DNA from: an uncultured Pseudomonadota bacterium
GTDB lineage: Bacteria; Pseudomonadota; Gammaproteobacteria; Steroidobacterales; Woeseiaceae
Assembly (NCBI GenBank): GCA_913055625.1
Contig: CAJXJW010000002.1
Span: forward strand, 248,001-312,000
Reading direction: 5' to 3'
DNA: 64,000 nucleotides
Shown here: positions 11,484-28,341 of the stretch, one piece after another
Position numbering within the stretch: the first letter of the stretch is position 1
Layout of the letters: each line of letters starts with the position of its first letter
Notes under the pieces: model-generated
Database searches by the model: none
What the model saw: the letters and a program-made list of their open reading frames with translations, nothing else
What the model was told of the DNA's origin: nothing
Translations under genes and position numbers: made by a program

Positions 11484-11512
11484 TTGACACTCCCCGACCG
11501 GGTCGCTACCTT
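11484..11512 (+). promoter_or_regulatory. Sigma-70-type promoter for the cobalamin operon
   Basis: A perfect TTGACA (11484-11489), 17 bases, then TACCTT (11507-11512, three of six matches). Transcription would begin near 11519, just before the riboswitch, which is where the aptamer needs it. Confidence 0.55.
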
Positions 11513-11521
11513 GGCCCGCAG

Positions 11522-11678
11522 ATGGTGCTCTCGTTGTGAGGGCTAAGAGGGAATCCGGTGCGAATCCGGAGTTGTACCCGCAACTGTAAGCCGGGAGCGG
11601 CAGGCAAACTGAGCCACTAGGGACAAGGACCCCGGGAAGGCTGCCTGACGCGGTGATCGGCAAACCAGGAAACCTGCC
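11522..11678 (+). promoter_or_regulatory. Cobalamin (B12) riboswitch aptamer
   Basis: All conserved blocks of the cobalamin aptamer appear in order: GGCTAAGAGGGAAtccGGTGcgAatCC near 11541-11568, CCCGCAACTGTAAgcCGG near 11577-11594, the GAGCCACTagg segment near 11611-11621, and the B12 box CCAGGAAACCTGCC at 11665-11678. It lies 156 bases before a btuB gene, the usual arrangement. When coenzyme B12 binds, expression of the uptake genes would fall. Family assignment is firm; the exact 5' edge is approximate. Confidence 0.93.
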
Positions 11679-11728
11679 ATCGCGTCGTTCGTCCAGGGCC
11701 GGGTCAGCCCCCAGGACCGGAATTGCAA

Positions 11729-11834: not shown

Positions 11835-13667
11835 ATGAATTCATTACGATACCTGGTCGGTCTTGCGGGGCTGATCGCCGTTAGCTGTGCGCACGCGGCG
11901 GACGATGCCGACGTGCGCGAGACGATCACCGTTTACGGTACGCGCCTCGGCCAACCGCTCACCGAGGCCGGGTCGAGCGTCGCCGTGATCACGGCCGAGG
12001 ACATCGAGGCGCTGGGCGTCGATTACGCCGTGGATGCGCTTGCGCGCGTCCCGGGCGTGACGGTCAACCAGAACGGTACGTTCGGCGGCATCGCCTCGGT
12101 GCGCATTCGCGGCGCAGCGAGCGAGCAGACGCTGGTGCTGGTCGACGGCGTCGTCACGAACGACCCGTCGTCGCCGGGCGGCGGCTTCAACTTCGCCACG
12201 CTCGACGTCGCGAATATCGAGCGTATCGAGGTCCTGAAAGGGCCGCAGTCGACGCTGTGGGGCTCCGACGCCATCGGCGGCGTCGTCAACATCGTGACGA
12301 AGCAGCCGCAGCCGGGTTTCGGCGGCAACGTGTACGCCGAGGCCGGGACCTACGGCACGCTGCGCGGTGGCGGCGAAGTCGCGTTCGGTGACGAACGCTA
12401 CGACCTGCGTCTCGCGGCGGTGCGCCACGAAACCGATGGCATCTCGAAAGCCGACGCCGCTAACGGCAACGACGAGAACGATGCCTACGCGGCGACCACC
12501 GTGGATCTCGGCGCCGGCGTACAATTCTCGGAAACGGTGCGTCTCGCGCTGAATGTCCTGCACACGGATGCCGATTCGGAGTTCGACAGCTTCGTGTTCG
12601 GCGCACAGGGCAACGTCGGCGACGGCGATGAACTCGCGAAATCCCAGGAGCTCGTCGCCGACCTGTCTCTCTCGTTCGCGCTGTTCGACGGGGCACTGGA
12701 CAACCTTCTGCTCGCCGGTTACTCGGACATCGAGCGCGACAACTACACGGGTGGCGCATTCGCGTACGGCAGCGAAGGCGACCGGCGCCAGTATCGCTAC
12801 CAGGGCACGCTGGCGTTCGACGGCGGTCATGCGCTGGCGTTCGGTGCCGAGCACGAAACGGTTTCGACGCCCGACGGGGAAGCCTCGATCGACGGGCTGT
12901 TCGCACTCGTGGAATGGCAGGCGCTCGACGCACTCACGCTCACCGCCGGGCTGCGCCGCGACGATCACGAGACGTTCGGCGGCGAGACGACAGGCCGGCT
13001 TGCCGCCGCATGGAACCCGGCGGACACGCTGACGTTTCGCGCGAGCTGGGGCCAGGGATTCAAGGCGCCGACGCTTTTCCAGACGACGTACTTCTGCTGC
13101 GGCGCGACCCAGCCTAATCCCGACCTGCGGCCGGAAACCGCGGACGGGTGGGACGCGGGCATCGACGTCCGCACGCCGGACGGCCGCGGCGAATTTGGAT
13201 TCACCGTGTTCGACCGCGACACCGAGAACCTGATTACGTTCGACTTCGCGGTCGGCGGCTACAGCAACATCGCGATCGCGACGTCGTCCGGCGTCGAGCT
13301 CTCGGCGAGCTACGCGTTGAACGACTGGTTCGGCGTCGGCCTCGACTACGCGTACATCGACGCGGAAGACGGCAACGGCGATCCGTTGATCCGCGTGCCG
13401 GAACACAGTGGTGACATCACGTTGCTGCTCGACCCGGCAGGCCCGTTCTCCGGTTCCGTAGCGATACGCTACAACGGCGAGGAGCAGGACTCGGCCGATG
13501 TCCTCGATGCCTGGACGCGCGTCGACGTGGCCGGCCGGTATCGGCTGAGCGAGGCCATCGAACTGTTCGCCCGTATCGAGAACCTGTTCGACGAGGAGTA
13601 CCAGCAGGTACTCGGCTACGGCACGCCCGGCCTGTCCGGCTACCTCGGCGCGCGTTTCCGGTTCTGA
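11835..13667 (+). CDS. btuB: TonB-dependent vitamin B12 receptor
   Basis: 610 residues. Signal peptide (MNSLRYLVGLAGLIAVSCAHA) followed by a TonB box (E-T-I-T-V-Y-G-T) near residue 30. The plug carries the usual family segments (VAVITAEDIEALG, VPGVTVNQNG, SVRIRGAASEQTLVLVDGV, VEVLKGPQSTLWGSDAIGGVVNIVT) and the barrel ends in Phe (GARFRF). Position directly below a cobalamin riboswitch and above btuF-C-D makes B12 uptake the clear role. A Cys-Cys pair (YFCCGATQPN) lies in an outer loop. Start set by GGGA at 11824-11827. First gene of a five-gene unit with the next gene only 5 bases away. Confidence 0.92.
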   Translation: MNSLRYLVGLAGLIAVSCAHAADDADVRETITVYGTRLGQPLTEAGSSVAVITAEDIEALGVDYAVDALARVPGVTVNQNGTFGGIASVRIRGAASEQTLVLVDGVVTNDPSSPGGGFNFATLDVANIERIEVLKGPQSTLWGSDAIGGVVNIVTKQPQPGFGGNVYAEAGTYGTLRGGGEVAFGDERYDLRLAAVRHETDGISKADAANGNDENDAYAATTVDLGAGVQFSETVRLALNVLHTDADSEFDSFVFGAQGNVGDGDELAKSQELVADLSLSFALFDGALDNLLLAGYSDIERDNYTGGAFAYGSEGDRRQYRYQGTLAFDGGHALAFGAEHETVSTPDGEASIDGLFALVEWQALDALTLTAGLRRDDHETFGGETTGRLAAAWNPADTLTFRASWGQGFKAPTLFQTTYFCCGATQPNPDLRPETADGWDAGIDVRTPDGRGEFGFTVFDRDTENLITFDFAVGGYSNIAIATSSGVELSASYALNDWFGVGLDYAYIDAEDGNGDPLIRVPEHSGDITLLLDPAGPFSGSVAIRYNGEEQDSADVLDAWTRVDVAGRYRLSEAIELFARIENLFDEEYQQVLGYGTPGLSGYLGARFRF

Positions 13668-15456: not shown

Positions 15457-16222
15457 ACTCGTGGCCAGGGACGTGCGCGTCGCGGCTGGCGGCAAGGTGC
15501 TCGTCGACGCCGCGAACGCGTCGCTGCGCGGCGGAGAGCTCGTCGCTGTCCTCGGCCCGAACGGGGCGGGCAAGACGACGCTGACGCGGGTGCTCGCCGG
15601 CATTCTCGAACCCGACAGCGGGTCTGTGATGCTGGACGGCGAGGCCGTGGCCGCGTTGCCGGCGGCGGCGCGCGCACGCCGTCTCGCGTACCTGCCGCAG
15701 AACCGGCCGCTGGCGTGGCCGAACCCGGTGCGCGACGTCGTGGCGCTCGGCCGGTATGCGCACGGCGGCACGCTGGGACGGCTCGGTGACGCGGACCGGC
15801 GTGCCGTGGACGCAGCGATCGCCGCGTGTGATCTCGCGGGCTTCGAAGACCGCTCCTGCGACACGTTGTCGGGCGGCGAACTCGCGCGCGTGCACCTCGC
15901 CCGCGCGCTGGCCGCCGAGGCGCCGCTGCTGCTCGCGGACGAGCCCATGGTCGCGCTCGACCCGCGGCAGCGCTTTCGCATGGCGGGACACCTGCGCAGT
16001 TTCGTCGATGACGGCGGCGGGGCGCTCGTCGTTCTGCACGACATCGCGCTCGCGGCGCGTATCGCGGACCGCCTGCTCGTAATGAACGATGGCCGAGTGG
16101 TGGCGGACGGCATGCCGCGCGCAATCCTCACCGAGCGACTGGTCGCCGACGTCTACGGCGTCCGCGCGCGGCTCGTCGAGCGCGCCGGCCACGTCGACGT
16201 GCACATAGAGTCGGCGCTGTGA
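15449..16222 (+). CDS. btuD: Cobalamin ABC transporter ATP-binding protein
   Basis: 257 residues, overlapping the btuC end by 8 bases. ABC ATPase motifs in order: Walker A G36-P-N-G-A-G-K-T43, Q-loop LPQNRPLAWP, signature L-S-G-G-E-L, Walker B LLLADEP, D-loop ALDPRQ, and H-loop VLHD. It powers the BtuC permease. The stop overlaps the GTG of cobQ (GTGA), so translation is coupled through the whole unit. Confidence 0.9.
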   Translation: MTELVARDVRVAAGGKVLVDAANASLRGGELVAVLGPNGAGKTTLTRVLAGILEPDSGSVMLDGEAVAALPAAARARRLAYLPQNRPLAWPNPVRDVVALGRYAHGGTLGRLGDADRRAVDAAIAACDLAGFEDRSCDTLSGGELARVHLARALAAEAPLLLADEPMVALDPRQRFRMAGHLRSFVDDGGGALVVLHDIALAARIADRLLVMNDGRVVADGMPRAILTERLVADVYGVRARLVERAGHVDVHIESAL

Positions 16223-17718
16223 CCGCGCGCTGCCTGATGATCCAGGGCACCGGCTCCGACGTCGGCAAGTCGCTCGTCGTCGCCGGGCTGTGCCGGCTCG
16301 CGCGGCGGCGGGGAATACGGGTTGCGCCGTTCAAACCGCAGAACATGTCGAACAACGCCGCGGCTTGCGACGGCGGCGAGATCGGGCGCGCGCAGGCGCT
16401 GCAGGCGCGAGCCGCGGGCGTCGAGCCGGACGTCGATCACAACCCGGTGCTGCTCAAGCCGCAGAGCGATCGTACGGCGCAGGTCGTCGTGCACGGCCAC
16501 GTGCGCTCGACGCTCGACGCCGCGAACTTTCTCGACGGACGCGCGACGCTGATGCCCGCGGTGATGGCGAGCTTCGAGCGCCTCGCCGCACGCCACGAGA
16601 TGGTCATCGTCGAGGGCGCGGGAAGCGCGGCCGAGACGAACCTGCGCCGCGCCGATATCGCGAACATGGGTTTCGCGCGCCGCGCGGACGTGCCGGTGTG
16701 CCTGCTCGCGGACATCGAGCGCGGCGGCGTCATCGCAAACCTCGTCGGCACGCACGCGGTTCTGGAGCCGGGCGACCGGGCGCTGGTCGTCGGGTTCCTC
16801 GTCAACCGCTTTCGCGGTGACCCGGGACTTTTCGACGCGGGCCTCGAAGACATCATTTCGCGTACCGGCTGGCCGTCGTTCGGCGTCATTCCCTGGCTGC
16901 CGGCCGCCGCGCTGCTGCCGGCCGAAGATGCCGTGCCGGCGTCCGCGCGATCGCCGCGCGCCGGCGAACAGGCACTGATCGTCGCTCCGATGCTGTCGCG
17001 CATGGCGAACTTCGACGACGCGGACCCGCTGCGGCAGGACCCGGCCGTCGACTTCCGGTTCATCCCGCCCGGGCAGCCGCTGCCGCGCGACGCGGACCTC
17101 GTCATCCTGTTCGGCACGAAGTCGACGCTCGGCGACCTCGCGTTTCTGCGCGCGCAGGGCTGGGATCACGACATCGTCGCGCACGCCCGCGCGGGCGGCC
17201 GCGTGCTCGGGCTCTGCGGCGGCTTCCAGCTGCTCGGCCGGCGAATCGACGACCCGCGGGGCGTCGACGGCGAGGCCGGCAGTATCGAAGGCCTCGGCCT
17301 GCTCGACGTCGAGACACGGATGCAGGGCGGCAAGACGGTGCGCCGCATCGCGGGCACGTGCGCGACGAGCGGCCTGTCAGTCAGCGGCTACGAGATCCAC
17401 TGCGGCGACACCCGGGGCCCGGACAGCGAGCGCCCGATGTTCGAGCTGGGCGGCCGGCCCGACGGCGCGCGCAGTGCGAACGGCCGTATCGAGGGCAGCT
17501 ATCTGCACGGACTGTTCGCGAGTGACCGGTTTCGCGCGTGGTACCTGCGCCGGCTGAACGAGACCGCGGCCGCGTTTGACTTCGACGCGGGTGTGGAACG
17601 GGCGATCGACGCCGTTGCGGACGGGCTCGAAGCCGCGGTCGCGGTCGACCGGCTGTTCGCCACGGCGCGCCCGACCACCGCGACGGCGCCGCGTCGCTTG
17701 CGCAAGTTTCGCGCGTAA
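16219..17718 (+). CDS. cobQ: Cobyric acid synthase
   Basis: 499 residues from GTG at 16219. The N-terminal dethiobiotin-synthetase-like ATP domain shows M-I-Q-G-T-G-S-D-V-G-K-S, FKPQNMSNNAAAC, and VEGAGSAAETNLR. The C-terminal class I glutamine-amidotransferase-type domain has the nucleophile in LGLC333GGFQLLG and the catalytic His in SYLH430GLF. It amidates side chains b, d, e and g of adenosylcobyrinic acid diamide. No other corrin-ring or nucleotide-loop gene lies in the window, so as the last gene of an uptake operon it suggests salvage and remodelling of imported corrinoids, or that the rest is elsewhere. Confidence 0.92.
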   Translation: MTARCLMIQGTGSDVGKSLVVAGLCRLARRRGIRVAPFKPQNMSNNAAACDGGEIGRAQALQARAAGVEPDVDHNPVLLKPQSDRTAQVVVHGHVRSTLDAANFLDGRATLMPAVMASFERLAARHEMVIVEGAGSAAETNLRRADIANMGFARRADVPVCLLADIERGGVIANLVGTHAVLEPGDRALVVGFLVNRFRGDPGLFDAGLEDIISRTGWPSFGVIPWLPAAALLPAEDAVPASARSPRAGEQALIVAPMLSRMANFDDADPLRQDPAVDFRFIPPGQPLPRDADLVILFGTKSTLGDLAFLRAQGWDHDIVAHARAGGRVLGLCGGFQLLGRRIDDPRGVDGEAGSIEGLGLLDVETRMQGGKTVRRIAGTCATSGLSVSGYEIHCGDTRGPDSERPMFELGGRPDGARSANGRIEGSYLHGLFASDRFRAWYLRRLNETAAAFDFDAGVERAIDAVADGLEAAVAVDRLFATARPTTATAPRRLRKFRA

Positions 17719-17900: not shown

Positions 17901-17940
17901 ATGGGAACGCTACCATCCGGAAATGTGACCGCTAACATTT
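17901..17940 (+). promoter_or_regulatory. Two LacI-family-type operators
   Basis: ATGGGAACGCTACCAT (17901-17916) and AAATGTGACCGCTAACATTT (17921-17940) are both imperfect palindromes (12 of 16 and 16 of 20 bases match their reverse complements) with the CGCT/CCGC core typical of LacI-family sites. Centres are 22 bp apart, two helical turns. The first differs at two of 14 positions from TGGGAGCGCTCCCA, the site of the actinobacterial cellobiose regulator CelR. They sit directly upstream of the receptor promoter. No LacI-family gene is in the window, so the regulator must be encoded elsewhere. Confidence 0.65.
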
Positions 17941-17944
17941 TTCG

Positions 17945-17977
17945 TTGACTTCGCGGAATGAGGGGTCTAGTTATAAG
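17945..17977 (+). promoter_or_regulatory. Promoter of the TonB receptor / SapC-halogenase locus
   Basis: TTGACT (17945-17950) and TATAAG (17972-17977) form a candidate promoter, with a long 21-base spacer that would suit an activator or need help. The -35 lies 4 bases after the second operator, so a bound LacI-type protein would overlap or abut RNA polymerase. Confidence 0.45.
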
Positions 17978-18254
17978 CGTGATTTACGACCCGGGCCGGC
18001 AGGATGTCTGGCCCGCGAGTAAGTCCAGGCGCGGCGGGATCAGCCGTTCCTGGGGGGCAATCCGACGAAACGGGGGGGATCCGCAACGTCAGCCGGCCGG
18101 TTGCAGTATGCAAGGGTCGGCACAATCCGAAATCCGCATTCGCCGTATCGACCAGGCAGGTGTTCCACCGGAACGCCGTACGGCGCGCGGACTCGGCAGC
18201 GGTCCGCTCCCCTGCTTCGCGAGAGCAATGTTCAATCGAAGGGGGATCGGTTCA
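17978..18254 (+). other. Non-coding leader before the TonB receptor
   Basis: About 270 bases between the promoter and the ATG at 18255, part of a 536-base stretch without a gene. The frame upstream of 18255 is open but reads as low-quality Arg/Gly/Pro sequence and lacks a signal peptide at its own start, so I treat it as untranslated. It ends with a purine-rich GAAGGGGGA ribosome-binding site. No known riboswitch class was recognised. Confidence 0.5.
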
Positions 18255-21200
18255 ATGAGTGGAAAACAGAAGTTCAGGGTCACGCCGTTGGCGGCCGCGG
18301 TCAGTTCCGCGTTGCTGATCGGCGCTACCGATACGGCACTTGCGCAGGATGACGCGCTCGAGGAAATCGTCGTAACGGGTATTCGCGGCAGCCTGCGAAA
18401 CTCCATGACGATCAAGCGCGACACCAGCGGTATCGTCGACGCAATCAGCAGCGAGGACATCGGCAAGTTCCCGGACACGAACCTGGCCGAGTCGCTGCAG
18501 CGAATCACCGGCATTTCAATCGAACGGCGCGACGGTGAAGGCGCGCAGGTCACGGCGCGCGGTTTCGGCCCGCAGTACAACATGGTCACCCTCAACGGCC
18601 GACAGATTCCGGGTGCCGACGGCTTCAGTAACGGCGACTCGGTAACGGGTGGCACGGGTGCCGGAACGCGTGCTTTCAACTTTGCGCAGCTGTCGTCCGA
18701 CGCGATTTCGGGCCTCACCGTCTACAAGACGGGCCGCGCGAACGTGCCGAGCGGCGGCATCGGCGCCACCATCGATATCATCACCGACCGGCCGCTGGAC
18801 CACGACGGCATGATCCTGAGCGTGGGCGCCAAGGCGGTTTCGGACGCGTCGCAGGTGTATGGCAGCGACGTGACACCCGAAATGTCGGGAATCTTCAGCT
18901 ATGCGAACGATGCGGGGACCTTCGGCGTCGGCCTGAATGCCAGCTACCAGGAGCGCGACGGCGGCTCCGTGCAGACGACGGAGAATGCCTGGAACATCCA
19001 GAGCTGGACGGGCACCGAGGCAGCACTGCGCTCGGACGCCGTCGTGGAGAACGCACCGGCGATGGGTCAGCTCTACGCCATGCCGAACGACCTCCGCTAC
19101 GCTTTCTCCGAATTTCACCGTGAGCGCACGAACGGGCAGGCGGTGATCCAGTTTGCACCGACGGACGCCTGGAAAATCACGGCGGACTATACGTTCGGTA
19201 CCAACGAGATCACCGAGGATCGCGGCGAGCAGACCACGTGGCTGCAGCGCAGCAACTCCTTCACTCACCTCACGTTCGATACCAATGAGGCCGTTGCGAC
19301 GCCGGTTTACTTGCGCGACGTCGTTGGCGGCGGCAAGGACTTCGGCTACGAGCAGCAGCGCAACGCGCAGAAGTACGAGTTCGGTTCCGTTGGCCTCAAC
19401 GTGCAGTGGGATGCGAGTGACGACCTGAGCTTCACGTTCGATGCTCATAATTCGACCTCCGAAAGCAACCCAAACGATTCGCTGACGGGTGCGAGCGCCG
19501 TGTTCTTCAGCCTCGCGGGCACCAAGTGCTTCATGGGCAACTGCCCGGGCGCGTGGACCCAGGAGTTCTTCTTCAACGAAGGCATGCCGATCTCGACCCG
19601 GACGTATTTTCCCACGATGCAGGACGCGGTCGACGGCACGAACGGCGTGGTCAACCCGGACTTCGGCGAGAACGAGCTGAGCTCGCAGATCGCCCGTACG
19701 TGGTACACGCTGCAGGATACCGAGGCAACGGGCGCACGCCTGGACGGCAAGCTCGAGTTCGACGACGGGCGTTTCCGCTTCGGCATCGATTCGTCCAAGG
19801 TGACGATGACGCGCCAGACGAGCGACACCTACGCCACGATGGGTGACTGGGGCGCCAACTTCGCGGGCCAGGAGCCCGGGATGGTTGCGCTGATGCACCC
19901 GGTGAGCATCACCGGCGAGTTCGACGACTGGGACACCACCGGTGCGGCACCGGGCGCGTGGACGGGTAATGCGTCGGAACTCACGGAGTGGGGTGTCACC
20001 GAGTACAACGTTCCCGATGCCTACAATCCCAATTTCAGCAACAACAATGAAATCGAGGAAGAGGTCTTCGCGGCGTACATTCAGCTCGAGCTGGACGGGG
20101 AGCTCGGCGGCATGTCGACGAACACGGTGATCGGCGTGCGCTGGGAGGACACCGACGTCACGTCGACGTCCCAGATCGCCATCCCCAGCGACATCGTCTG
20201 GATCTCCAACAATGACTTTCGACTGGAGCGGTCCACCGACATTCAGCCGTTCAACGAGAAAGCCAGTTATGACCACATTCTGCCGAGCCTGGATTTCAGC
20301 ATCGACCTCACGGATCAGGTCAAGGGCAGGGCGTCGTTCAGCAATACCATTGCACGGGCCCCGTACGGCAACCTGTACTCCGGTCCCACGCCGGGTAATC
20401 CATCAGGTTCCATCCTGATCAATCCGTCCACCCGGGCGTCCGCGAACTCCCAGAACCCGAGCCTGATACCGCTGGAGTCGTCGAACCTGGACCTCGCCGT
20501 CGAATGGTATTTCTCCGACGACAGCTACGCGTCCATAACGTACTGGGACAAGCGCGTCGACAACTTCATCGGAAACAGCGTACAACGGGATACCCTGTAC
20601 GGCCTGACGGACCCGACGTCCGGACCGGATGCGCAGGCGGCACTGGCGTTCCTGACCAGCGGTCAATGCGCCACCCAGGTGGCCGCCGCGGGCAATGACG
20701 TCAATGCGGCCTGTTCAGCGAACGACACGGCGCTGTTTACGGCCGTGGCCATGCTGCGCAACGACGGAGCAACCGGGGGACTGGCGGCGTACGACGGCAG
20801 TAACGCGCAAGTGCTGCAGATGGAGGCAGATTACGATCTCGTCGGTGAAGCGGATGACCCGCTGTACCAGTACGACGTCAATCGCCCCCTCAACCAGAAC
20901 AATGCGCACATCGACGGTTGGGAAATCGGCGGCCAGTATTTCTTTGGTGATACCGGCTTCGGCATCTTTGCGAACTACACGATCGTGAACGGCGACGTCG
21001 GGTTCGACGATGCCGGCCAGCCCGGCGTGAACCAGTTTGCGCTGCTGGGCCTGAGTGATACGGCCAACGTCATGTTGATGTACGAGAAGTACGGTTTCTC
21101 GGCGCGCCTTGCCTACAACTGGCGTGACGAGTACCTGATCCTGGCCAACCAGAACGGCAGCAACACGAATCCGTTCTATGTTGAGCCCTACGACCAGGTC

Positions 21201-21371
21201 GACCTCAACCTCAGCTACTACATCACCGATGGGCTCTCGGTCGAGTTCGAAGCCATCAATCTCACCGGCGAAGACGTGCGCTGGCATGCCCGCTCCGAGA
21301 AGCAGGTGGTCAAGCTGATCGAGCAAAGCCCGCGCTACATGCTGGGAGCTCGTTACAACTTCGACCTCTGA
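18255..21371 (+). CDS. Large TonB-dependent receptor (Xanthomonas/Caulobacter carbohydrate type)
   Basis: 1038 residues. Start chosen at 18255 for the signal peptide (FRVTPLAAAVSSALLIGATDTALAQ is preceded by MSGKQK) and the purine-rich site before it. TonB box-like EEIVVTG, then the plug with the segments IGKFPDTNLAESLQRITG, SIERRDGEGAQVTARGFGP, and QYNMVTLNGRQIPG that mark the large TonB-Xanth-Caul receptors, which usually import oligosaccharides. The barrel ends ARYNFDL. A Cys pair sits in one outer loop (KCFMGNC). Paired LacI-type operators upstream and a GH9 enzyme at the end of the locus point to beta-glucan or cello-oligosaccharides as the ligand; that is inference. Confidence 0.85.
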   Translation: MSGKQKFRVTPLAAAVSSALLIGATDTALAQDDALEEIVVTGIRGSLRNSMTIKRDTSGIVDAISSEDIGKFPDTNLAESLQRITGISIERRDGEGAQVTARGFGPQYNMVTLNGRQIPGADGFSNGDSVTGGTGAGTRAFNFAQLSSDAISGLTVYKTGRANVPSGGIGATIDIITDRPLDHDGMILSVGAKAVSDASQVYGSDVTPEMSGIFSYANDAGTFGVGLNASYQERDGGSVQTTENAWNIQSWTGTEAALRSDAVVENAPAMGQLYAMPNDLRYAFSEFHRERTNGQAVIQFAPTDAWKITADYTFGTNEITEDRGEQTTWLQRSNSFTHLTFDTNEAVATPVYLRDVVGGGKDFGYEQQRNAQKYEFGSVGLNVQWDASDDLSFTFDAHNSTSESNPNDSLTGASAVFFSLAGTKCFMGNCPGAWTQEFFFNEGMPISTRTYFPTMQDAVDGTNGVVNPDFGENELSSQIARTWYTLQDTEATGARLDGKLEFDDGRFRFGIDSSKVTMTRQTSDTYATMGDWGANFAGQEPGMVALMHPVSITGEFDDWDTTGAAPGAWTGNASELTEWGVTEYNVPDAYNPNFSNNNEIEEEVFAAYIQLELDGELGGMSTNTVIGVRWEDTDVTSTSQIAIPSDIVWISNNDFRLERSTDIQPFNEKASYDHILPSLDFSIDLTDQVKGRASFSNTIARAPYGNLYSGPTPGNPSGSILINPSTRASANSQNPSLIPLESSNLDLAVEWYFSDDSYASITYWDKRVDNFIGNSVQRDTLYGLTDPTSGPDAQAALAFLTSGQCATQVAAAGNDVNAACSANDTALFTAVAMLRNDGATGGLAAYDGSNAQVLQMEADYDLVGEADDPLYQYDVNRPLNQNNAHIDGWEIGGQYFFGDTGFGIFANYTIVNGDVGFDDAGQPGVNQFALLGLSDTANVMLMYEKYGFSARLAYNWRDEYLILANQNGSNTNPFYVEPYDQVDLNLSYYITDGLSVEFEAINLTGEDVRWHARSEKQVVKLIEQSPRYMLGARYNFDL

Positions 21372-21407
21372 TCGCGGTCAGTCCAGCCGGTTGGACCGAC
21401 TCGGACC

Positions 21408-21440
21408 CCGGGCCGCTGCGGATGCAGCGGCCCGGTTTTT
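21408..21440 (+). terminator. Strong intrinsic terminator after the TonB receptor
   Basis: A perfect 12-bp GC-rich stem, CCGGGCCGCTGC (21408-21419) with GCAGCGGCCCGG (21424-21435), a GGAT loop, and TTTTT at 21436-21440. It would end most transcripts after the receptor and leave the SapC-halogenase genes at lower level or under their own promoter. Confidence 0.88.
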
Positions 21441-21569
21441 GCTTCTGACCCGGCGTCAGCACACACTTGAGATGCGCCTGCAATTCTGGAATGGTCATTG
21501 AACCGGCAGGATTCGATACGGGAGTCCGCATGCGGCGCGCGCTCGGACCGGGTCAGCAACGAGGCTGTC

Positions 21570-22325
21570 ATGGCACGCTATGAATTGTTGAACAACGTGA
21601 CGCACAAGGATCTGCGCGTCGCCACGCACTTCGGCCCTGAGTTCGGCGACGCGGTCGGCATGGTGCCTGCCTATGCGACCGAGTTTGCCGAGTTGCAACG
21701 GGAATACCCGATCCTGTTCCGGCGGGATACGGAGGGCGGCGCGTTCCAGGCCGTGGCACTGCTCGGTTTCGCAAAGGACGAAAACCTCTACCTGGACGGC
21801 GACCGGTGGAACGCGTCGTACGTGCCCGGACACGTCGTGCGCGGCCCATTCATGATCGGTTTCCAGGAACAGCAGGTCGGCGGCGAGTTGCGCCGGGAGC
21901 AGGTCATACACGTCGACGTCGAACACCCGCGCGCGACGGCCGGCAAGGGCGAGTCGGTTTTCCTGGCGCAGGGCGGCAACAGCCCGTACCTCGAGCACAT
22001 CATGGTGGTGCTGCGCGGCATTCGCGACGGTCTCGAGGCCGGCGAGAAGATGTTCGCCGCGCTGGACGAACTCGGGATCATCCAGCCTGTCAGTCTCGAC
22101 GTGCGCCTGGACGACGAAATCGGTGTAAAGCTGGCGGGACTCCACGGCATCGACCGGGAGAGGCTGCAGTCGCTGGATGCGGAAGCGTTGCATCGGCTGA
22201 ACGCGGCCGGCTGGCTCGAAGGGGCGTATCTCGTTCTCGCCTCGATGCAGAACATGCGGCGATTGATGGCCGAGAAGCAGCGCCGGCTGCGCGAGGAGCG
22301 CGGGACGGTTTCCGGGGTCGCCTGA
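21570..22325 (+). CDS. SapC family protein
   Basis: 251 residues from the ATG at 21570 with GAGG five bases upstream. The sequence follows the SapC pattern of proteobacterial sugar loci: YELLNNVTHKDLRV, VPAYATEFAELQREYPILFRR, FQAVALLGFAKDENLYLDGDRW, and YVPGHVVRGPFMIG. The name comes from an S-layer-related gene of Campylobacter, but in this context the biochemical role is unknown. No signal peptide, so it is cytoplasmic. It is regularly found beside TonB receptors, cupin-like proteins and halogenases, as here. Next gene starts 5 bases on. Confidence 0.85.
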   Translation: MARYELLNNVTHKDLRVATHFGPEFGDAVGMVPAYATEFAELQREYPILFRRDTEGGAFQAVALLGFAKDENLYLDGDRWNASYVPGHVVRGPFMIGFQEQQVGGELRREQVIHVDVEHPRATAGKGESVFLAQGGNSPYLEHIMVVLRGIRDGLEAGEKMFAALDELGIIQPVSLDVRLDDEIGVKLAGLHGIDRERLQSLDAEALHRLNAAGWLEGAYLVLASMQNMRRLMAEKQRRLREERGTVSGVA

Positions 22326-22330
22326 CCGGC

Positions 22331-23353
22331 ATGGAGCAGGAACGCGGCAGTGTCCGTGTCTTGGAGGGCTGCCGTCCCGGCGCCCTGCCCATCGACGAGT
22401 TGCTGGAGACGGGCACGCCGGCCGTACTGAAGGGCGTCGTGCGGGATTGGCCGCTGGTCCAGGCCGGGCTGCGGGACAGCGCGGCAGCCATGGAATACCT
22501 GCGGGCGTTGTACAACGGGCGGCCCGTACTCTACAGCTACGGTTCACCGGACGTGGCCGGTCGCCCGTTCTACACCGACGACTTCACGGAACTCAATTTC
22601 GAAGTGCGTCGCGGCGCCCTCGACCAGGTGCTGGACGACATCGCCGCACACGTGGACGATGACCGGCCGCCAACCTGGTACGTTGCGTCGCTATTGGTCG
22701 ATTCCAACCTGCCCGGCTTCGCCGGGGCGAACGACGTCGGCCTGGCGGAACTGGGCATCGAGGCGCCGGCGAGCATCTGGATCGGCAACCGGGTGACGGC
22801 GTCCTGTCATTACGACGCGCCCAACAACATCGCCTGTTGCGCCGTCGGTCGGCGACGGTTCACGTTCCTGCCGCCGGAGCAGATCCGGAACCTCTACCCG
22901 GGGCCGCTGGAGCCGACGCCCGGCGGCCAGGCCGTCAGCATCGTGGATTTCGACGCACCGGACCTCGAACGTTTCCCGCGCTTTCGCGAAGCGCAGGCGA
23001 GCGCCATGTCCGTCGTCCTGGAGCCGGGCGATGCCGTGTTCGTGCCGAGCATGTGGTGGCACCACGTGCAGGGACTGGATCCGTTCACCGCACTCGTCAA
23101 CTACTGGTGGAACAGCATGCCGGCGCACATACCGACGCCGATGCACGCGCTGTACCATGCCATCTGGACGATTCGCGACCGCCCCGAGCGGGAAAAACAA
23201 GCCTGGCGCGAGGTCTTCGACTACTACGTCTTCGGCCCGGGCGAACATGCGGGCGAGCATCTGCCCGAGGCGGCGCGCCGTCTCTTGGGGCCCATGGACG
23301 AGGTGCAGTCGCGCCAGTTGCGCGCGATGCTGCTCGGCAAGCTGAATCGATGA
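22331..23353 (+). CDS. JmjC/cupin-like Fe(II)/2-oxoglutarate-dependent protein
   Basis: 340 residues. The double-stranded beta-helix metal motif is visible: C-H160-Y-D162-A-P-N-N, and a distal His in M-W-W-H244-H245-V. The layout (DELLETGTPAVLKGVVRDWPLVQAG, then IWIGNRVTASCHYD, CAVGRRRFTFLPPEQIRNLYPGP) matches the cupin-like/JmjC hydroxylase family that acts on proteins or small molecules. It lies 5 bases after SapC and 37 before the halogenase, so it probably acts in the same process. Substrate unknown; a hydroxylase acting on a sugar-locus protein or metabolite is conceivable. Confidence 0.82.
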   Translation: MEQERGSVRVLEGCRPGALPIDELLETGTPAVLKGVVRDWPLVQAGLRDSAAAMEYLRALYNGRPVLYSYGSPDVAGRPFYTDDFTELNFEVRRGALDQVLDDIAAHVDDDRPPTWYVASLLVDSNLPGFAGANDVGLAELGIEAPASIWIGNRVTASCHYDAPNNIACCAVGRRRFTFLPPEQIRNLYPGPLEPTPGGQAVSIVDFDAPDLERFPRFREAQASAMSVVLEPGDAVFVPSMWWHHVQGLDPFTALVNYWWNSMPAHIPTPMHALYHAIWTIRDRPEREKQAWREVFDYYVFGPGEHAGEHLPEAARRLLGPMDEVQSRQLRAMLLGKLNR

Positions 23354-23390
23354 AACGGCGCCGCGCGGCGGCGGTACGAGGTAAGGACTG

Positions 23391-24980
23391 GTGAACGGGG
23401 AACAGCAAAGAATCAGGAAGGTCGTGATTGCCGGGGGCGGCACGGCCGGGTGGGTCGCCGCCACGGCACTGTCGTTCCAGTTTCGGGAACTGCTGGATAT
23501 CACGCTGGTGGAGTCGGAGCAGATCGGCACGGTGGGCGTCGGCGAATCGACGATCCCCACGATCCGGACGTTCCACCAGCTCCTGCAGATCGACGAGAGG
23601 GAGTTCCTGAAACAGGTCGCCGGCAGTTTCAAGCTATCGATCTCGTTCGAGAACTGGCTGCGGCCGGGCGATCGCTACATCCACCCGTTCGGCTACACGG
23701 GGCTGGGCATCTGGGCCTGCGAGTTTCACCACTTCTGGCTCGATAGCCTGCGGCGCGGTATGCAGTCGGAGCTGGGCGACTTCTGCCTCGAGACCGTCGC
23801 GTCACGAACCGACCAGTTTGCGCTGCTCTCGAAGGATGGCCAGTCGTCCAGCCAGTGGTCCGTGCGCTGGGCCAAGTCGCCGACGGCGCCCGGCAACCCG
23901 GAGGTCAACTACGCCTACCACTTCGACGCGGCACTCTATGCGGTTTTTCTCCGGCGCATGGCGGAGAAACGCGGCGTTACCCGGCTGGAAGGCAAGATCC
24001 GCGAGGTGCGCCAGAACGGAGAGAACGGCTTCATCGACGCGCTGGTGCTGGACAACGGCGACGTGATCGAGGGAGATCTTTTCATCGATTGCACCGGTTT
24101 CCGCGGCCTGCTGATCGAGCAGACGCTCAAGACCGGCTACGAAGACTGGAACAACTGGCTGCCCTGCGACAGGGCGGTGGCGCTGCAGACCGAGTCCGTC
24201 GGTCCGGCCGTTCCCTATACGCGGGCGATCGCGCACGAGGCCGGCTGGCGCTGGCACATCCCGTTGCAGCACCGGGTCGGTTGCGGGCTGGTGTTCTCGT
24301 CACAGCACATGTCCGACGACGAAGCGACGGCCAAGCTGGTCAGGGATGCGGCGGCGCCCGCAGTCCGCGAGCCGTGGCTGGTGCCGTTCCGGACCGGGCG
24401 CCGGCTGAAGGCATGGAACAAGAACGTCGTCGCGCTCGGCCTGGCCGCCGGGTTCATCGAGCCGCTCGAATCGACCAGCATTCACCTGGCCATCAGCGGC
24501 CTCGTGCGCCTGATCCACATGTTCCCGTCGCGCGGCATCACCGACTCGGTGGTCGAACGCTATAACCGGGTGAGCCGGGCGGAAATGGAGCACGTGCGGG
24601 ACTTCATCATCCTGCACTATCACGCCAATCAGCGTGACGAAGCGTTGTGGCGCGAATGCCGCGAGATGACGCTCCCGGACGGCCTCGCCGAGCGCATTCA
24701 GCTGTTTCGAGATCGCGCCCACGTCTGGCAGGGCGACGACGAGCTGTTCCGGCTGGACTCGTGGACCCACGTGATGATCGGCCAGGGCATCATGCCGGCG
24801 GACCATCACCCGGTGGCCCGCGCGCTGCCGGACGCCGACCTGGGCCGCCTGTTCGAGGCGATCCGCAAGCCCATCAATGCCGCCGTGCAGAACATGCCGT
24901 CGCACCAGGCCTTTCTCGAGCGCTATTGCCCGGCGGACAGCTCGGTGTGGCACAAGCTCGGGCCCGCGGTGGGCGCCTGA
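23391..24980 (+). CDS. Flavin-dependent tryptophan-halogenase-like protein
   Basis: 529 residues from the GTG at 23391, preceded by GAGGTAAGG. FAD-binding G15-G-G-T-A-G20-W, GVGESTIPTI, the halogenase lysine in G-S-F-K81-L (K79 in PrnA), the W286-x-W288-x-I-P signature that separates halogenases from monooxygenases, and the active-site Glu in E-P-L-E360-S (E346 in PrnA). It should make hypohalous acid from reduced flavin, oxygen and halide and direct it at a substrate. Relatives in such receptor/SapC loci (Brevundimonas BrvH, Xanthomonas Xcc enzymes) brominate indoles in vitro, but their natural substrate is unknown. No flavin reductase gene is adjacent. Confidence 0.9.
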   Translation: MNGEQQRIRKVVIAGGGTAGWVAATALSFQFRELLDITLVESEQIGTVGVGESTIPTIRTFHQLLQIDEREFLKQVAGSFKLSISFENWLRPGDRYIHPFGYTGLGIWACEFHHFWLDSLRRGMQSELGDFCLETVASRTDQFALLSKDGQSSSQWSVRWAKSPTAPGNPEVNYAYHFDAALYAVFLRRMAEKRGVTRLEGKIREVRQNGENGFIDALVLDNGDVIEGDLFIDCTGFRGLLIEQTLKTGYEDWNNWLPCDRAVALQTESVGPAVPYTRAIAHEAGWRWHIPLQHRVGCGLVFSSQHMSDDEATAKLVRDAAAPAVREPWLVPFRTGRRLKAWNKNVVALGLAAGFIEPLESTSIHLAISGLVRLIHMFPSRGITDSVVERYNRVSRAEMEHVRDFIILHYHANQRDEALWRECREMTLPDGLAERIQLFRDRAHVWQGDDELFRLDSWTHVMIGQGIMPADHHPVARALPDADLGRLFEAIRKPINAAVQNMPSHQAFLERYCPADSSVWHKLGPAVGA

Positions 24981-25003
24981 GGCCTGGCTGAGCGGCCCGG
25001 GCC

Positions 25004-25702
25004 ATGCTTCTCGAACTGCACCGGGACCTCGCGGTCCGACGGGTCGAACTCGGCAACGAGGGCGCCCCGTTGCTGATCGTCGACGCCTTCGTTGCGGACC
25101 CCGACCGGCTCCTGCGCAAGGCGTCGCGGTCGCGGTTCGTACCGATCGGCAGGATGTATCCGGGCATACGCGCGCGTGCACCCGTGAACTACGAGAAGCT
25201 GCTGGAAGAATTGATCGCGCCGAACCTGCAGGAATGGTTCGGTCTGCCGGCGGGACAGCTGACGTTCCCGCTCTGTCACTATTCGCTGCTGACGCGACCG
25301 CCCGACTCGCTCGGGTTCCTGCAGCGGATCCCGCACATCGACTCGGTCGGGGCGAGCGGCCTGGCCACCGTGCACTACCTGTTCCGGGGCGACTGGGGAG
25401 GCACGGCGTTCTATCGCCACCGGGAGACGGGTTACGAATACATCGACGAGGCCCGCCTCGACGGGTACTCGCGCTGCCTGCGCCGGCAGGAAGCCGGTCC
25501 GGATGCGCCGGCCGCGGGCTACATCGACGGTGATACGGCACTGTTCGAGCAGATTGCCAGGGTCGACGGCGTCTTCAATCGGTTGGTGATCTACCGGAGG
25601 AACTCGCTGCACTCGGGATCCGTCGACAGCCACAGGGTCCCGCCGCCGGATCCGGTGGCGGGGCGGCTGTCGATCAATTCCTTTATCGACGTCGGGAATT
25701 GA
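25004..25702 (+). CDS. DUF6445-like protein, possible 2OG-Fe(II) oxygenase fold
   Basis: 232 residues. Contains an H-x-D in IPH-ID, HYLFRGDWGGTAFYRH, and a late LVIYRRNSLHSG, spaced as in prolyl-4-hydroxylase-like double-stranded beta-helix enzymes (HxD...H, with a nearby Arg). These fit the DUF6445 family often linked to halogenase/SapC loci. No signal peptide. It begins 24 bases after the halogenase, so the operon pairs two probable Fe(II) enzymes with a halogenase. Its stop lies exactly at the edge of an antisense DinB remnant. Confidence 0.7.
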   Translation: MLLELHRDLAVRRVELGNEGAPLLIVDAFVADPDRLLRKASRSRFVPIGRMYPGIRARAPVNYEKLLEELIAPNLQEWFGLPAGQLTFPLCHYSLLTRPPDSLGFLQRIPHIDSVGASGLATVHYLFRGDWGGTAFYRHRETGYEYIDEARLDGYSRCLRRQEAGPDAPAAGYIDGDTALFEQIARVDGVFNRLVIYRRNSLHSGSVDSHRVPPPDPVAGRLSINSFIDVGN

Positions 25703-25796
25703 ACAGCGGCCCGCGGAGCCGCCCGGAATCGGCGTCCGGAAGATCAGCGGTGACGGCGTAGAGCCTGTCATTCATCCAGCGGTTGTAGGCGGTCAT
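25683..25796 (-). pseudogene. DinB-family N-terminal remnant
   Basis: Reading the minus strand from the ATG at 25796 gives MTAYNRWMNDRLYAVTADL followed by PDADSGRLRGPLF. This is the start of a DinB-type helical-bundle protein (typically YNRWMNxRLY...ELSDEERxxDRGAFF...). The match stops at about 25703, then the frame runs into the antisense of the preceding gene and ends at 25683. Only ~32 residues survive and the metal-binding His residues of the family are missing, so it cannot work. It marks a breakpoint right after the DUF6445-like gene. Confidence 0.6.
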
Positions 25797-25866
25797 CGTG
25801 CGCGCCTGTCGGGGGGGCATGGGCGAGGTACTTCGTGTCGCATTGATGCCGGATAGAGGAGGCAAG

Positions 25867-28341
25867 ATGAGAAATGTACTGCAGGCGTGCCTCTGCGCGC
25901 TTCTTTTTGGTCAGGCGGCGGCTGAAGAATCCGCGACCGGCGCGCTCGAACTCAACGAGCTCGACTACTACGAGGCGACGGGCGTCAACTGGCTGGTCTT
26001 CAGTAACTGGTACGACGGGCTGTTCAGCGACTCGAAGATCAGCGGGATCGAGCTGATTCACCACGGCGTGCGCACGGCGACGAACGGCGACGTGCGCCTC
26101 GACGCCACGCCGGAGCAATGGGACCGCATACCGGAGTTCGTCCATAGAACTGTCGACCGCGAGCTTGGCGTCATCGAGGCGCACCTCCGCTACGCGGACT
26201 TCGGGTTCGAGTACACGGTCCGCGCCGAGCGGGACGGCGACGGCCTCAGGATCACCGTCGTGCTGCCGGAGCCCGTTCCGGAAGTGCTGGCCGGCAAGGC
26301 CGGGCTCAACCTCGAGTTTCTGCCCGCCGCGTACTTCGGCAAGGCCTGGATCATGGACGACGGCAGCGGCCTGTTCCCGCGCTACCCGGCGGGGCCGAAG
26401 GAGCAGAAGGATGTCGTCGCGCCGGAGCCGCTCGCGCGCGGCCGGCACTTCGTGCTCGCGCCGGAGGACCCCGCGCACCGGGTCGCGATCACGGCCACGC
26501 GCGGCGACCTCGCCGTGTACGACGGGCGCGCGAAGGCGCAGAACGGCTGGTTCGTCGTGCGCGGCGTCCTGCCGGCCGGCAGGAAGGGAACCGTGCTCGA
26601 GTGGACGCTGGCGGCGAATGCGCAACCCGGCTGGTTGCGCGAGCCCGTCATCGGCCACTCGCAGGTCGGCTACCACCCCGCCCAGGACAAGGTCGCCGTC
26701 ATCGAACTGGACGCGAACGACGACCGCGCGCCGGCGGCGCGGCTCGTCCGCGTCGGTGCCGACGGCAGCCGCGAGCTTGCGAAGTCCGCGGAAGCGACGG
26801 AGTGGGGTCGCTACAAGCGCTACCGCTATCGCCACTTCGACTTCAGCGACGTGCGCGCCGAGGGCGTCTACGTCATCGAGTACGGTGACCAGGTCACCGG
26901 GCCGTTCCGCATCGCCACCGACGTCTACGCCGATGCCTGGAAACCGACGCTCGACGTGTTCTTCCCGGTGCAGATGGATCACATGCTGGTGAACGAGGCC
27001 TACCGTGTCTGGCACGGCGCATCGCACCTGGACGATGCGTTGCAGGCACCGGTAAACCACGAGCACTTCGATCTGTACGCGCAGGGACCGACGACCGACA
27101 CGACCTATGCGCCCGGTGAGCACATTCCCGGGCTCAACATCGGCGGCTGGTACGATGCCGGCGACTACGACATCCGCACCCAGACGCAGTACTACGTCGT
27201 CAACAACCTCGTGAACGCCTGGGAGACGTTCGGCATAGAGCGGGACGTGACGCTGGTCGACGACGCGCGGAAACTCGTCGACATCCACGTGCCGGACGGC
27301 AGGAACGACCTGCTGCAGCAGATCCGGCACGGCACGCTCGCGCTCGTGGCGCAGTTCCGGGCCGTCGGCCATGCGATCCCCGGCATCATCGTCCCGGACA
27401 TCAGCCAGTACACGCACCTGGGCGACGGGCTCACGATGACCGACAACCTCGTCTACGACCCGGCGATGAGCCCGCTGGAGTCCAACGGCGTGAGGAGCGG
27501 CCTGTTCGACGACCGCTGGGCCTTCACGAGCCGGAGCTCGGCCCTGAACTTCGGGTCGATTGCCGCGCTGGCGGCCGCGAGTCGCGCGCTTCGCGGATTC
27601 GACGATGAACTCGCGGATGAGGCGCTCGCGATCGCAGTGCGCGCGTGGGACGAGGAGCAGTCACTGGACGAGCCCTACACGTTCCGTCACGGCAATACGA
27701 CGGGCGGGCCGCTCGCCAGCGAGGAGATGAAGGCGGCCGTGGAACTGCTCGTGACGACCGGCGAGAAGCGCTACGCTGATCGCTTCCTCGAATACCTGCC
27801 GGAACTCGAAGCGCGTTTCAGCTTTCACGCGATACTCGCGGTGCGCGCCATGCCTTACCTCGACGACCGGTTCCACTCGACGTTGCGTCGCCTGGCAGGC
27901 GAGCACCGGGAGGTGCTCGACGGGCTCGCGGCGGCCAATCCCTACGGGGTGCTGATCACCGAGGGGGGCTGGGCCGGCAACGGCACCGTGATCAGCATCG
28001 CGATGACGAACTGGTACCTGTTGCAGGCGTTCCCGGACCTGTTCACGCCGGAGGACGTGTTTGCAGGCCTGAACTACCTTTTCGGCACGCATCCGCACTC
28101 GAACCTGTCCTTCGTCTCGGCGGTCGGCGCGCGGTCGAAGGAGGTCGCCTACGGCATGAACCGCGCGGACTTTTCGTTCATCGCGGGCGGCGTCGTGCCC
28201 GGCGTGCTGGTCCTGAAGCCGGACTACCCCGAGAACAAGGAGAACTGGCCGTTCCTGTGGGGCGAGAACGAGTACGTGATCTCGGTCGGCTCGAGCTACC
28301 TGTTCCTCGTGAACGCCGTCGACCGCTTGCTGCGGGACTAG
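25867..28341 (+). CDS. Glycoside hydrolase family 9 endoglucanase-like enzyme
   Basis: 824 residues, secreted (MRNVLQACLCALLFGQAAA). Start at 25867 has GAGGAGG just upstream; an open frame further up is ignored. An extra ~240-residue N-terminal region leads to the Ig-like CelD_N domain (VIGHSQVGYHPAQDKVAVIEL) and then the (alpha/alpha)6 catalytic domain: G-W-Y-D430-A-G-D433-Y-D (catalytic base motif), the late FGTHPHSNLSFVS with its His, and W-G-E-N-E802-Y holding the general acid. GH9 enzymes cut beta-1,4-glucans (cellulose, mixed-linkage or glucomannan), some acting from chain ends. No carbohydrate-binding module or linker is seen. It closes a locus headed by a sugar-type TonB receptor. Confidence 0.88.
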   Translation: MRNVLQACLCALLFGQAAAEESATGALELNELDYYEATGVNWLVFSNWYDGLFSDSKISGIELIHHGVRTATNGDVRLDATPEQWDRIPEFVHRTVDRELGVIEAHLRYADFGFEYTVRAERDGDGLRITVVLPEPVPEVLAGKAGLNLEFLPAAYFGKAWIMDDGSGLFPRYPAGPKEQKDVVAPEPLARGRHFVLAPEDPAHRVAITATRGDLAVYDGRAKAQNGWFVVRGVLPAGRKGTVLEWTLAANAQPGWLREPVIGHSQVGYHPAQDKVAVIELDANDDRAPAARLVRVGADGSRELAKSAEATEWGRYKRYRYRHFDFSDVRAEGVYVIEYGDQVTGPFRIATDVYADAWKPTLDVFFPVQMDHMLVNEAYRVWHGASHLDDALQAPVNHEHFDLYAQGPTTDTTYAPGEHIPGLNIGGWYDAGDYDIRTQTQYYVVNNLVNAWETFGIERDVTLVDDARKLVDIHVPDGRNDLLQQIRHGTLALVAQFRAVGHAIPGIIVPDISQYTHLGDGLTMTDNLVYDPAMSPLESNGVRSGLFDDRWAFTSRSSALNFGSIAALAAASRALRGFDDELADEALAIAVRAWDEEQSLDEPYTFRHGNTTGGPLASEEMKAAVELLVTTGEKRYADRFLEYLPELEARFSFHAILAVRAMPYLDDRFHSTLRRLAGEHREVLDGLAAANPYGVLITEGGWAGNGTVISIAMTNWYLLQAFPDLFTPEDVFAGLNYLFGTHPHSNLSFVSAVGARSKEVAYGMNRADFSFIAGGVVPGVLVLKPDYPENKENWPFLWGENEYVISVGSSYLFLVNAVDRLLRD

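Follow-up and report, generated by a model that had tools for sequence, protein, structure and literature searches.

What does a flavin-dependent halogenase do downstream of a gene for an outer-membrane receptor? The question is raised by a locus of an uncultured member of the Woeseiaceae, which was analysed in a stretch of 64,000 nucleotides (the window, C2:248001-312000 of a 3.63-Mb genome), the part read being 17.9-28.3 kb. Here, a TonB-dependent receptor of the family TIGR01782 is followed by a cassette of genes for a SapC-family protein, a JmjC-type oxygenase (Cupin_8), the halogenase and a DUF6445 protein (Table 1). Receptor-linked modification is supported as a class of explanation. Our preferred reading, with a probability of roughly 0.42, is a xylose-switched receptor operon whose cassette modifies a protein tied to the receptor, the receptor itself being the first candidate.

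Genome contigs were searched with the halogenase and the best 80 of 119 relatives were taken, which are close relatives by design and not mutually independent. According to their titles these loci come from Xanthomonas, Stenotrophomonas, Luteimonas, Pseudoxanthomonas, Lysobacter, Coralloluteibacterium and Lysobacteraceae, with one called just 'Proteobacteria bacterium'; we term them Xanthomonadaceae. SapC, Cupin_8 and the halogenase follow each other in unbroken order in 80/80 orthologous loci, and since the same order recurs in 80 genome records without breaks the arrangement is more than chance. A comparison of neighbourhoods had been proposed in the first-pass annotation, with separation of the halogenase cluster from the receptor or from the GH9 (glycoside hydrolase family 9) gene behind it as the outcome that would speak against one locus. 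Its result was divided: the receptor accompanies the cassette in 79 of the 80 loci, the contig of the remaining one (L022) beginning just before SapC, whereas the GH9 gene was found at none of the 80. DUF6445 occurs in 31 of the 80 loci and a second halogenase in three. Identity to the window proteins ranges from 57-68% for the receptor, 60-70% for SapC and 61-75% for Cupin_8 to 66-76% for the halogenase and 54-66% for DUF6445.

The 198-bp gap between receptor and SapC contains a strong hairpin with a T-run. A hairpin was found in this position in 36/79 loci (41/79 by another rule) and in 1/79 of equal-length stretches inside SapC, which is a weak control. As a class, terminator-like sites are not in excess (5 vs 6.6 in shuffles), and only the hairpin behind the receptor is strong; its position suggests that the receptor is made abundantly and the enzymes less so.

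The linkage extends beyond these relatives. In a sample of 80 Pseudomonadota genomes (halogenase at E<=1e-50, TIGR01782 receptor at E<=1e-90) five have the halogenase, all of them among the eight with a TIGR01782 receptor. Every one of the 21 halogenases has such a receptor at a distance of 96-3567 bp, and a halogenase within 4 kb was seen for 14 of the 42 receptors. The earlier claim that the module is tied to glycan-uptake receptors is thereby strengthened (79/80 loci; 21/21 halogenases within 3.6 kb). On a tree of the 42 receptors the linkage requires six changes (five forced by starred branches), fewer than in all 500 shuffles. When the 14 linked receptors were compared with one nearest halogenase each, a Spearman coefficient of 0.348 was obtained (Mantel p 0.0016, within-genome shuffle p 0.0098), and receptor and halogenase have the identical nearest neighbour in 9/14 linked pairs. 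The genome of Caulobacter vibrioides (C. crescentus) has matches to PF04820, SapC and TIGR01782.

As for the ligand, the two operator sites upstream of the receptor (TGGGAACGCTACCA and TGTGACCGCTAACA, in this order) both fit the pattern TGNNANCGNTANCA and are both degenerate compared with TGGTAGCGCTAACA, the xyl-box bound by XylR according to passages of PMC7748154 and PMC10380989. In 75 of 79 loci the 450 bp ahead of the receptor contain a site of the xyl-box type, and in none of them the reversed pattern; the site is lacking at L028, L045 and L047, and at L069, which has no upstream DNA. Genome-wide the loose operator pattern is not enriched (22 matches vs 36 for the reversed pattern), so that the window sites rest on their pairing, position and orthology. 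The own genome contains 16 distinct sites; the surroundings of eight outside the window were taken and genes were scanned at five, which precede two GH3 genes, a GH67 alpha-glucuronidase gene followed by a sugar transporter gene, and a LacI gene (two sites upstream, C3:147.3-148.5 kb). In one relative (L054) the neighbours of the module are a LacI gene, XylB (TIGR01312, 512 bits, cut-off 380), XylA (TIGR02630, 681 bits, cut-off 533) and GH3. Furthermore, a genome of another class of the phylum, probably Alphaproteobacteria, carries receptor, SapC, Cupin_8 and halogenase at 38-52% identity together with two xyl-box type sites and GH67 (L205). On the grounds of the upstream sites in 75/79 loci, GH67 and GH3 behind like sites, and xylA/xylB at L054, the window locus is very probably a xylan/xylose receptor operon, whose receptor would take xylan or xylose oligosaccharides; the sites point to control by an XylR-type LacI repressor.

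This assignment departs from the first-pass annotation, which had described a beta-glucan locus with GH9 as an integral part. The GH9 gene stands 164 bp behind DUF6445 on the same strand, and as the gap is without a terminator-like site GH9 may be co-transcribed; its N-terminus resembles a signal peptide by eye. A beta-glucan utilisation locus should have conserved beta-glucan hydrolases beside the receptor, but GH9 was found in 0/80 orthologous loci (at least 9 kb 3' of the halogenase being covered in 69) and in 0/39 other relatives' genomes, the single occurrence in 40 being the window's own. With the xyl-box sites and the xylan genes (GH67/GH3, XylA/XylB) also speaking against it, a beta-glucan utilisation locus is highly improbable. 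We therefore rejected beta-glucan as the ligand in favour of xylan, as well as GH9 as a part of the module; GH9 is a local neighbour outside the conserved cassette.

Comparable receptors have been described. As stated in parts of PMC1790865 (Blanvillain et al. 2007), XCC2828 of Xanthomonas campestris and CC0999 of Caulobacter crescentus are xylose-induced TonB receptors whose locus is conserved between both and was termed a partial CUT (carbohydrate utilization containing TonB-dependent receptor) locus; the XCC2828 promoter shares a 20-bp palindrome with the Caulobacter xylose regulon. The word halogenase does not occur in the text of PMC1790865. The window receptor is presumed to be an orthologue of XCC2828 and CC0999. 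With the window the xylose-type receptor loci gain another member, and the systematic halogenase linkage is the useful part. Of CAZyme (carbohydrate-active enzyme), transporter and regulator genes just GH9 is adjacent among the flanking genes scanned, so the locus is no complete CUT locus. The LacI, GH67, GH3 and sugar transporter genes behind like sites are on other contigs, and the window locus is at most a multipartite CUT system.

The glycan context was scanned in 20 genes at nine loci with halogenase-linked receptors. Alpha-amylases lie between two halogenase-receptor clusters (L202/L203), a fucosidase adjoins the halogenase at L204, GH36 and an SSF transporter occur at L207, and pullulanase, amylase and GH31 are near the linked receptor at L208; no CAZyme was among the genes scanned at L206 and L209. 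The arabinofuranosidase of L201 adjoins an unlinked receptor and was not counted. Since linked receptors stand beside genes for several glycans, the common factor is the receptor and not one glycan. This variety bears on the proposal that aromatic esters (ferulate, coumarate) arriving with xylan are the substrate of the halogenase. Xylan indeed bears hydroxycinnamates, and the locus has xyl-box type sites. However, the same halogenase family is found beside amylase, pullulanase, GH36 and fucosidase genes, the glycans of which are without such esters, and the solved halogenase relatives act on indoles, which makes the proposal very unlikely.

The preferred reading, modification of a receptor-tied protein, draws on the kind of enzymes in the cassette. 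The halogenase contains K81, W286/W288 (in WRWHIP), E357 and E360, in agreement with the intact catalytic residues (K81, W-x-W-x-I-P, E360) reported at first pass. The lysine, both tryptophans and both glutamates are invariant in 81/81 aligned sequences, the last P of WRWHIP being A in 33/81; with PF04820, catalytic Lys, W-x-W-x-I and Glu, all 81 have what characterises a flavin-dependent halogenase. The nearest solved structures are Xcc4156 (6y1w, 539.5 bits), 9luq (520.6 bits) and BrvH (6frl, 437 bits). The window enzyme shares PF04820 and the catalytic residues with Xcc4156 and BrvH. Unlike its 80 orthologues, which are 66-76% identical to it, Xcc4156 is visibly less alike in the alignment and looks like a paralogue. 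In the portions of PMC7336383 concerned with it, Xcc4156 has an open substrate site and brominates model indoles but not free Trp; a peptide substrate is suggested by the authors, and the native substrate of Xcc4156/BrvH-type halogenases is given as unknown as of 2020. The solved relatives of the window halogenase prefer bromide.

For Cupin_8, H160-x-D162 and H244 are invariant in 81/81 sequences, and a ligand role of these residues is suggested by the family. The nearest solved proteins are the protein hydroxylases FIH and JMJD5, with which Cupin_8 shares the cupin_8/JmjC domain and the H-x-D...H motif; unlike them it is bacterial and operonic with a receptor, and the similarity is at the domain level only (73 bits). 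DUF6445 has H111-x-D113 in 32/32 and H203 in 31/32 aligned sequences. Its AlphaFold2 (AF2) model (predicted local distance difference test, pLDDT, 93.6) gave 25 PDB matches at E<=0.001 in Foldseek, nearly all of them 2-oxoglutarate (2OG)/Fe(II) oxygenases, and has the double-stranded beta-helix with H-x-D...H. Fold and motif are like those of HygX, P3H1 and Tpa1 (E 4.6e-5 to 5.1e-4), whereas identity is 9-15% and the TM-score (template modelling score) by query 0.46-0.53. Judging from model and motifs, both DUF6445 and the cupin very probably belong to the Fe(II)/2OG enzymes, and the earlier suggestion of two Fe(II) enzymes gains ground from the oxygenase matches and from the proximity of the cupin to FIH/JMJD5.

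This set of enzymes could also be read in another way, namely that the product of the cassette is a small aromatic carrying halogen and hydroxyl groups (an indole or short peptide), which is exported and then retaken or sensed via the receptor. Two 2OG oxygenases plus a halogenase could tailor one scaffold, the halogenases are closely linked to receptors, and parts of PMC7336383 describe action of Xcc4156-type halogenases on indole and derivatives in vitro. On the other hand, no scaffold-making gene is present in the uninterrupted stretch that the 80 loci have in common (the flanks were not searched for one), the glycan differs among the loci of the linked receptors, and xyl-box control suits nutrient uptake. 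We regard such a product as rather unlikely. A classic antibiotic had already been discounted at first pass, and this view persists, as the conserved part of the 80 loci is without an antibiotic-assembly gene.

Modification of a receptor-tied protein, in contrast to a small product, could proceed as follows. Xylose or xylan fragments would induce the operon via the XylR-type LacI repressor, and the outer-membrane receptor would import xylo-oligosaccharides. Behind the terminator hairpin the enzymes would be made at a lower level, presumably in the cytoplasm: SapC, the JmjC hydroxylase, the halogenase and, in some lineages, DUF6445. The cassette would then act on a receptor-tied protein or peptide, in the first place the receptor itself before export, by side-chain hydroxylation and halogenation of an aromatic residue. 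That the enzymes act on something receptor-tied is suggested by the constancy of receptor, SapC, JmjC protein and halogenase while the catabolic neighbours vary; the JmjC type and the open-site halogenase type speak for a protein substrate. A narrower form, in which TIGR01782 receptors are halogenated (brominated) and hydroxylated post-translationally by the cytoplasmic enzymes encoded with them, SapC serving as substrate guide, is tentative and, taken by itself, doubtful.

Several observations weigh against this reading, the first of them from genomics. DUF6445 is missing from 49 of the 80 loci. In the window's own family (48 genomes) a listed TIGR01782 receptor stands no more than 6 kb away from 48/114 halogenases (no more than 4 kb from 45), with at most 15 receptor candidates scored per genome and many contigs being short; 31/148 receptors have a halogenase near, and two genomes with halogenases have no listed receptor. 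Inspection of 20 of the 42 contigs with unlinked halogenases revealed a TonB receptor, or a piece cut by the contig end, within about 4 kb in 12. Five are receptors by Pfam (L218, L221, L223, L225, L228), three are contig-end pieces (L214, L215, L226), and four are recognised by weak matches of our own profile, at 44-67 bits (L219, L220, L224, L227), these four probably being of another receptor subfamily. A further four contigs are too short for a judgement (L211, L212, L213, L216), and four are without a near receptor (L210, L217, L222 and L229, with a piece 8.7 kb off). The rule is therefore a halogenase beside a TonB receptor, with real exceptions. Furthermore, the co-divergence of receptor and halogenase can be explained by joint inheritance alone, and 36 of the 40 SapC-bearing stretches taken from other genomes contain no detected halogenase.

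The proteins themselves add to these objections. No export signal is visible by eye in the cassette enzymes, whereas the receptor is exported. In an alignment of the 42 receptors no Trp common to all 14 halogenase-linked ones was found. W385 is present in 10/14 linked vs 8/28 unlinked receptors and W532 in 10/14 vs 5/28, neither being significant on independent pairs. Both residues are invariant in the window and 79 orthologous receptors (80/80), and they are candidate leads, no more.

In a further reading, which takes SapC to be the substrate-binding part, the target would be a different component of uptake (TonB, ExbB, a periplasmic partner) or another surface protein. In other lineages SapC neighbours an outer-membrane efflux protein, HlyD/M50, SecA-like proteins, parvulins (two loci) and a TonB receptor, mostly genes of surface-protein biogenesis, and related loci have sulfotransferase-TPR (tetratricopeptide repeat) and Asp/Asn-hydroxylase-TPR genes nearby. 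This evidence comprises ten genes at eight loci and is neighbourhood alone, and the remaining neighbours are a cytidylyltransferase, an FAD-linked oxidase, a transposase and a DUF4214 protein; the proposal appears unlikely, with the receptor staying the first candidate in the reading that we prefer.

The five AF2 models of SapC range in pLDDT from 58.6 to 88.5 (best 88.5), and the fold has no match at E<=0.001 in the PDB or among viral models; viral copies of SapC or the halogenase were not among the pattern matches. Residue 114 of SapC is His in 81/81 halogenase-linked sequences and Cys in 33/42 of a wider set, most of which are without a halogenase in the stretch, while Asp116 is nearly invariant (40/42 of the wider set). 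Residue 114 may mark a functional split of the family. At eight scanned loci among the 40 SapC loci from other genomes (L094-L133), efflux, SecA-like, parvulin or TonB-receptor genes recur alongside unrelated genes, for which no common explanation was found.

Searches of the open literature for SapC, halogenase and TonB together and for tryptophan halogenase, TonB-dependent and polysaccharide utilization gave no match; halogenase, TonB-dependent and xylan gave nothing but a species description, and flavin-dependent halogenase with TonB-dependent receptor gave other subjects only, by title. The linkage narrows the substrate candidates for Xcc4156/BrvH-type halogenases to a receptor-linked protein or ligand, with xylose as the likely inducer. 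If true, halogenation (bromination) and hydroxylation of such receptors would be a novel type of protein modification in bacteria, one that was overlooked in Caulobacter and Xanthomonas.

Related arrangements were seen elsewhere. In the own genome, L010 (C7:51.5-66 kb) contains three tandem halogenases, a cupin_8 and a TPR protein, with two TIGR01782 receptors in the same genome, and is a second, different halogenase-receptor cluster. At L012 (C2:332-339.6 kb) the second SapC of the genome has a CarboxypepD_reg-type TonB receptor and two TPR-sulfotransferase genes as neighbours, which looks as though a sulfotransferase had replaced the halogenase. At L210 (G151:C224) a pair of halogenases stands close to a TPR protein that carries an aspartyl/asparaginyl beta-hydroxylase domain, another protein-hydroxylase type. 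The window Cupin_8 is 61-75% identical to the 80 Xanthomonadaceae loci, whereas in 39 relatives from its own genus or order no match exceeds 52%; being closer to Xanthomonadaceae than to its own genus and order, it makes acquisition of the operon by lateral transfer possible.

The features are collected in Table 1; all those of the first-pass annotation (two LacI-type operators, TonB receptor, terminator, SapC, JmjC/cupin, halogenase, DUF6445 and GH9) are present. SapC, Cupin_8, halogenase and DUF6445 are separated by gaps of 5, 37 and 23 bp, in order.

Table 1 Features of the receptor and halogenase locus in window coordinates. Domain calls are from Pfam and NCBIfam profiles; gene starts were chosen by us; aa, amino acids.
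Feature	Position	Strand	Basis
Two XylR/LacI-type operator sites (putative)	17902-17915 + 17924-17937	+	Pattern search
TonB-dependent receptor TIGR01782 (TonB-Xanth-Caul), 1038 aa	18255..21371	+	NCBIfam (745.5 bits, cut-off 310), Pfam Plug and barrel; start taken as ATG 18255, stop 21371
Intrinsic-terminator-like hairpin between receptor and enzyme genes	21408..21435	+	12 pairs, then TTTTT; about -33 kcal/mol including flank
SapC-family protein, 251 aa	21570..22325	+	PF07277
JmjC/cupin_8 probable Fe(II)/2OG oxygenase, 340 aa	22331..23353	+	PF13621
Flavin-dependent halogenase, Xcc4156/BrvH type, 529 aa	23391..24980	+	PF04820, 631 bits
DUF6445, predicted 2OG-Fe(II) oxygenase, 232 aa	25004..25702	+	PF20043
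GH9 with CelD_N domain	25867..28341	+	PF00759, PF02927

No riboswitch precedes the receptor; a Cobalamin riboswitch at 11506-11695 (RF00174, 111.7 bits) is the sole Rfam match that reaches the gathering score in the window, and it lies upstream of an open reading frame at 11835-13667. A CobB/CobQ-like gene (16219-17718) lies just ahead of the receptor operon.

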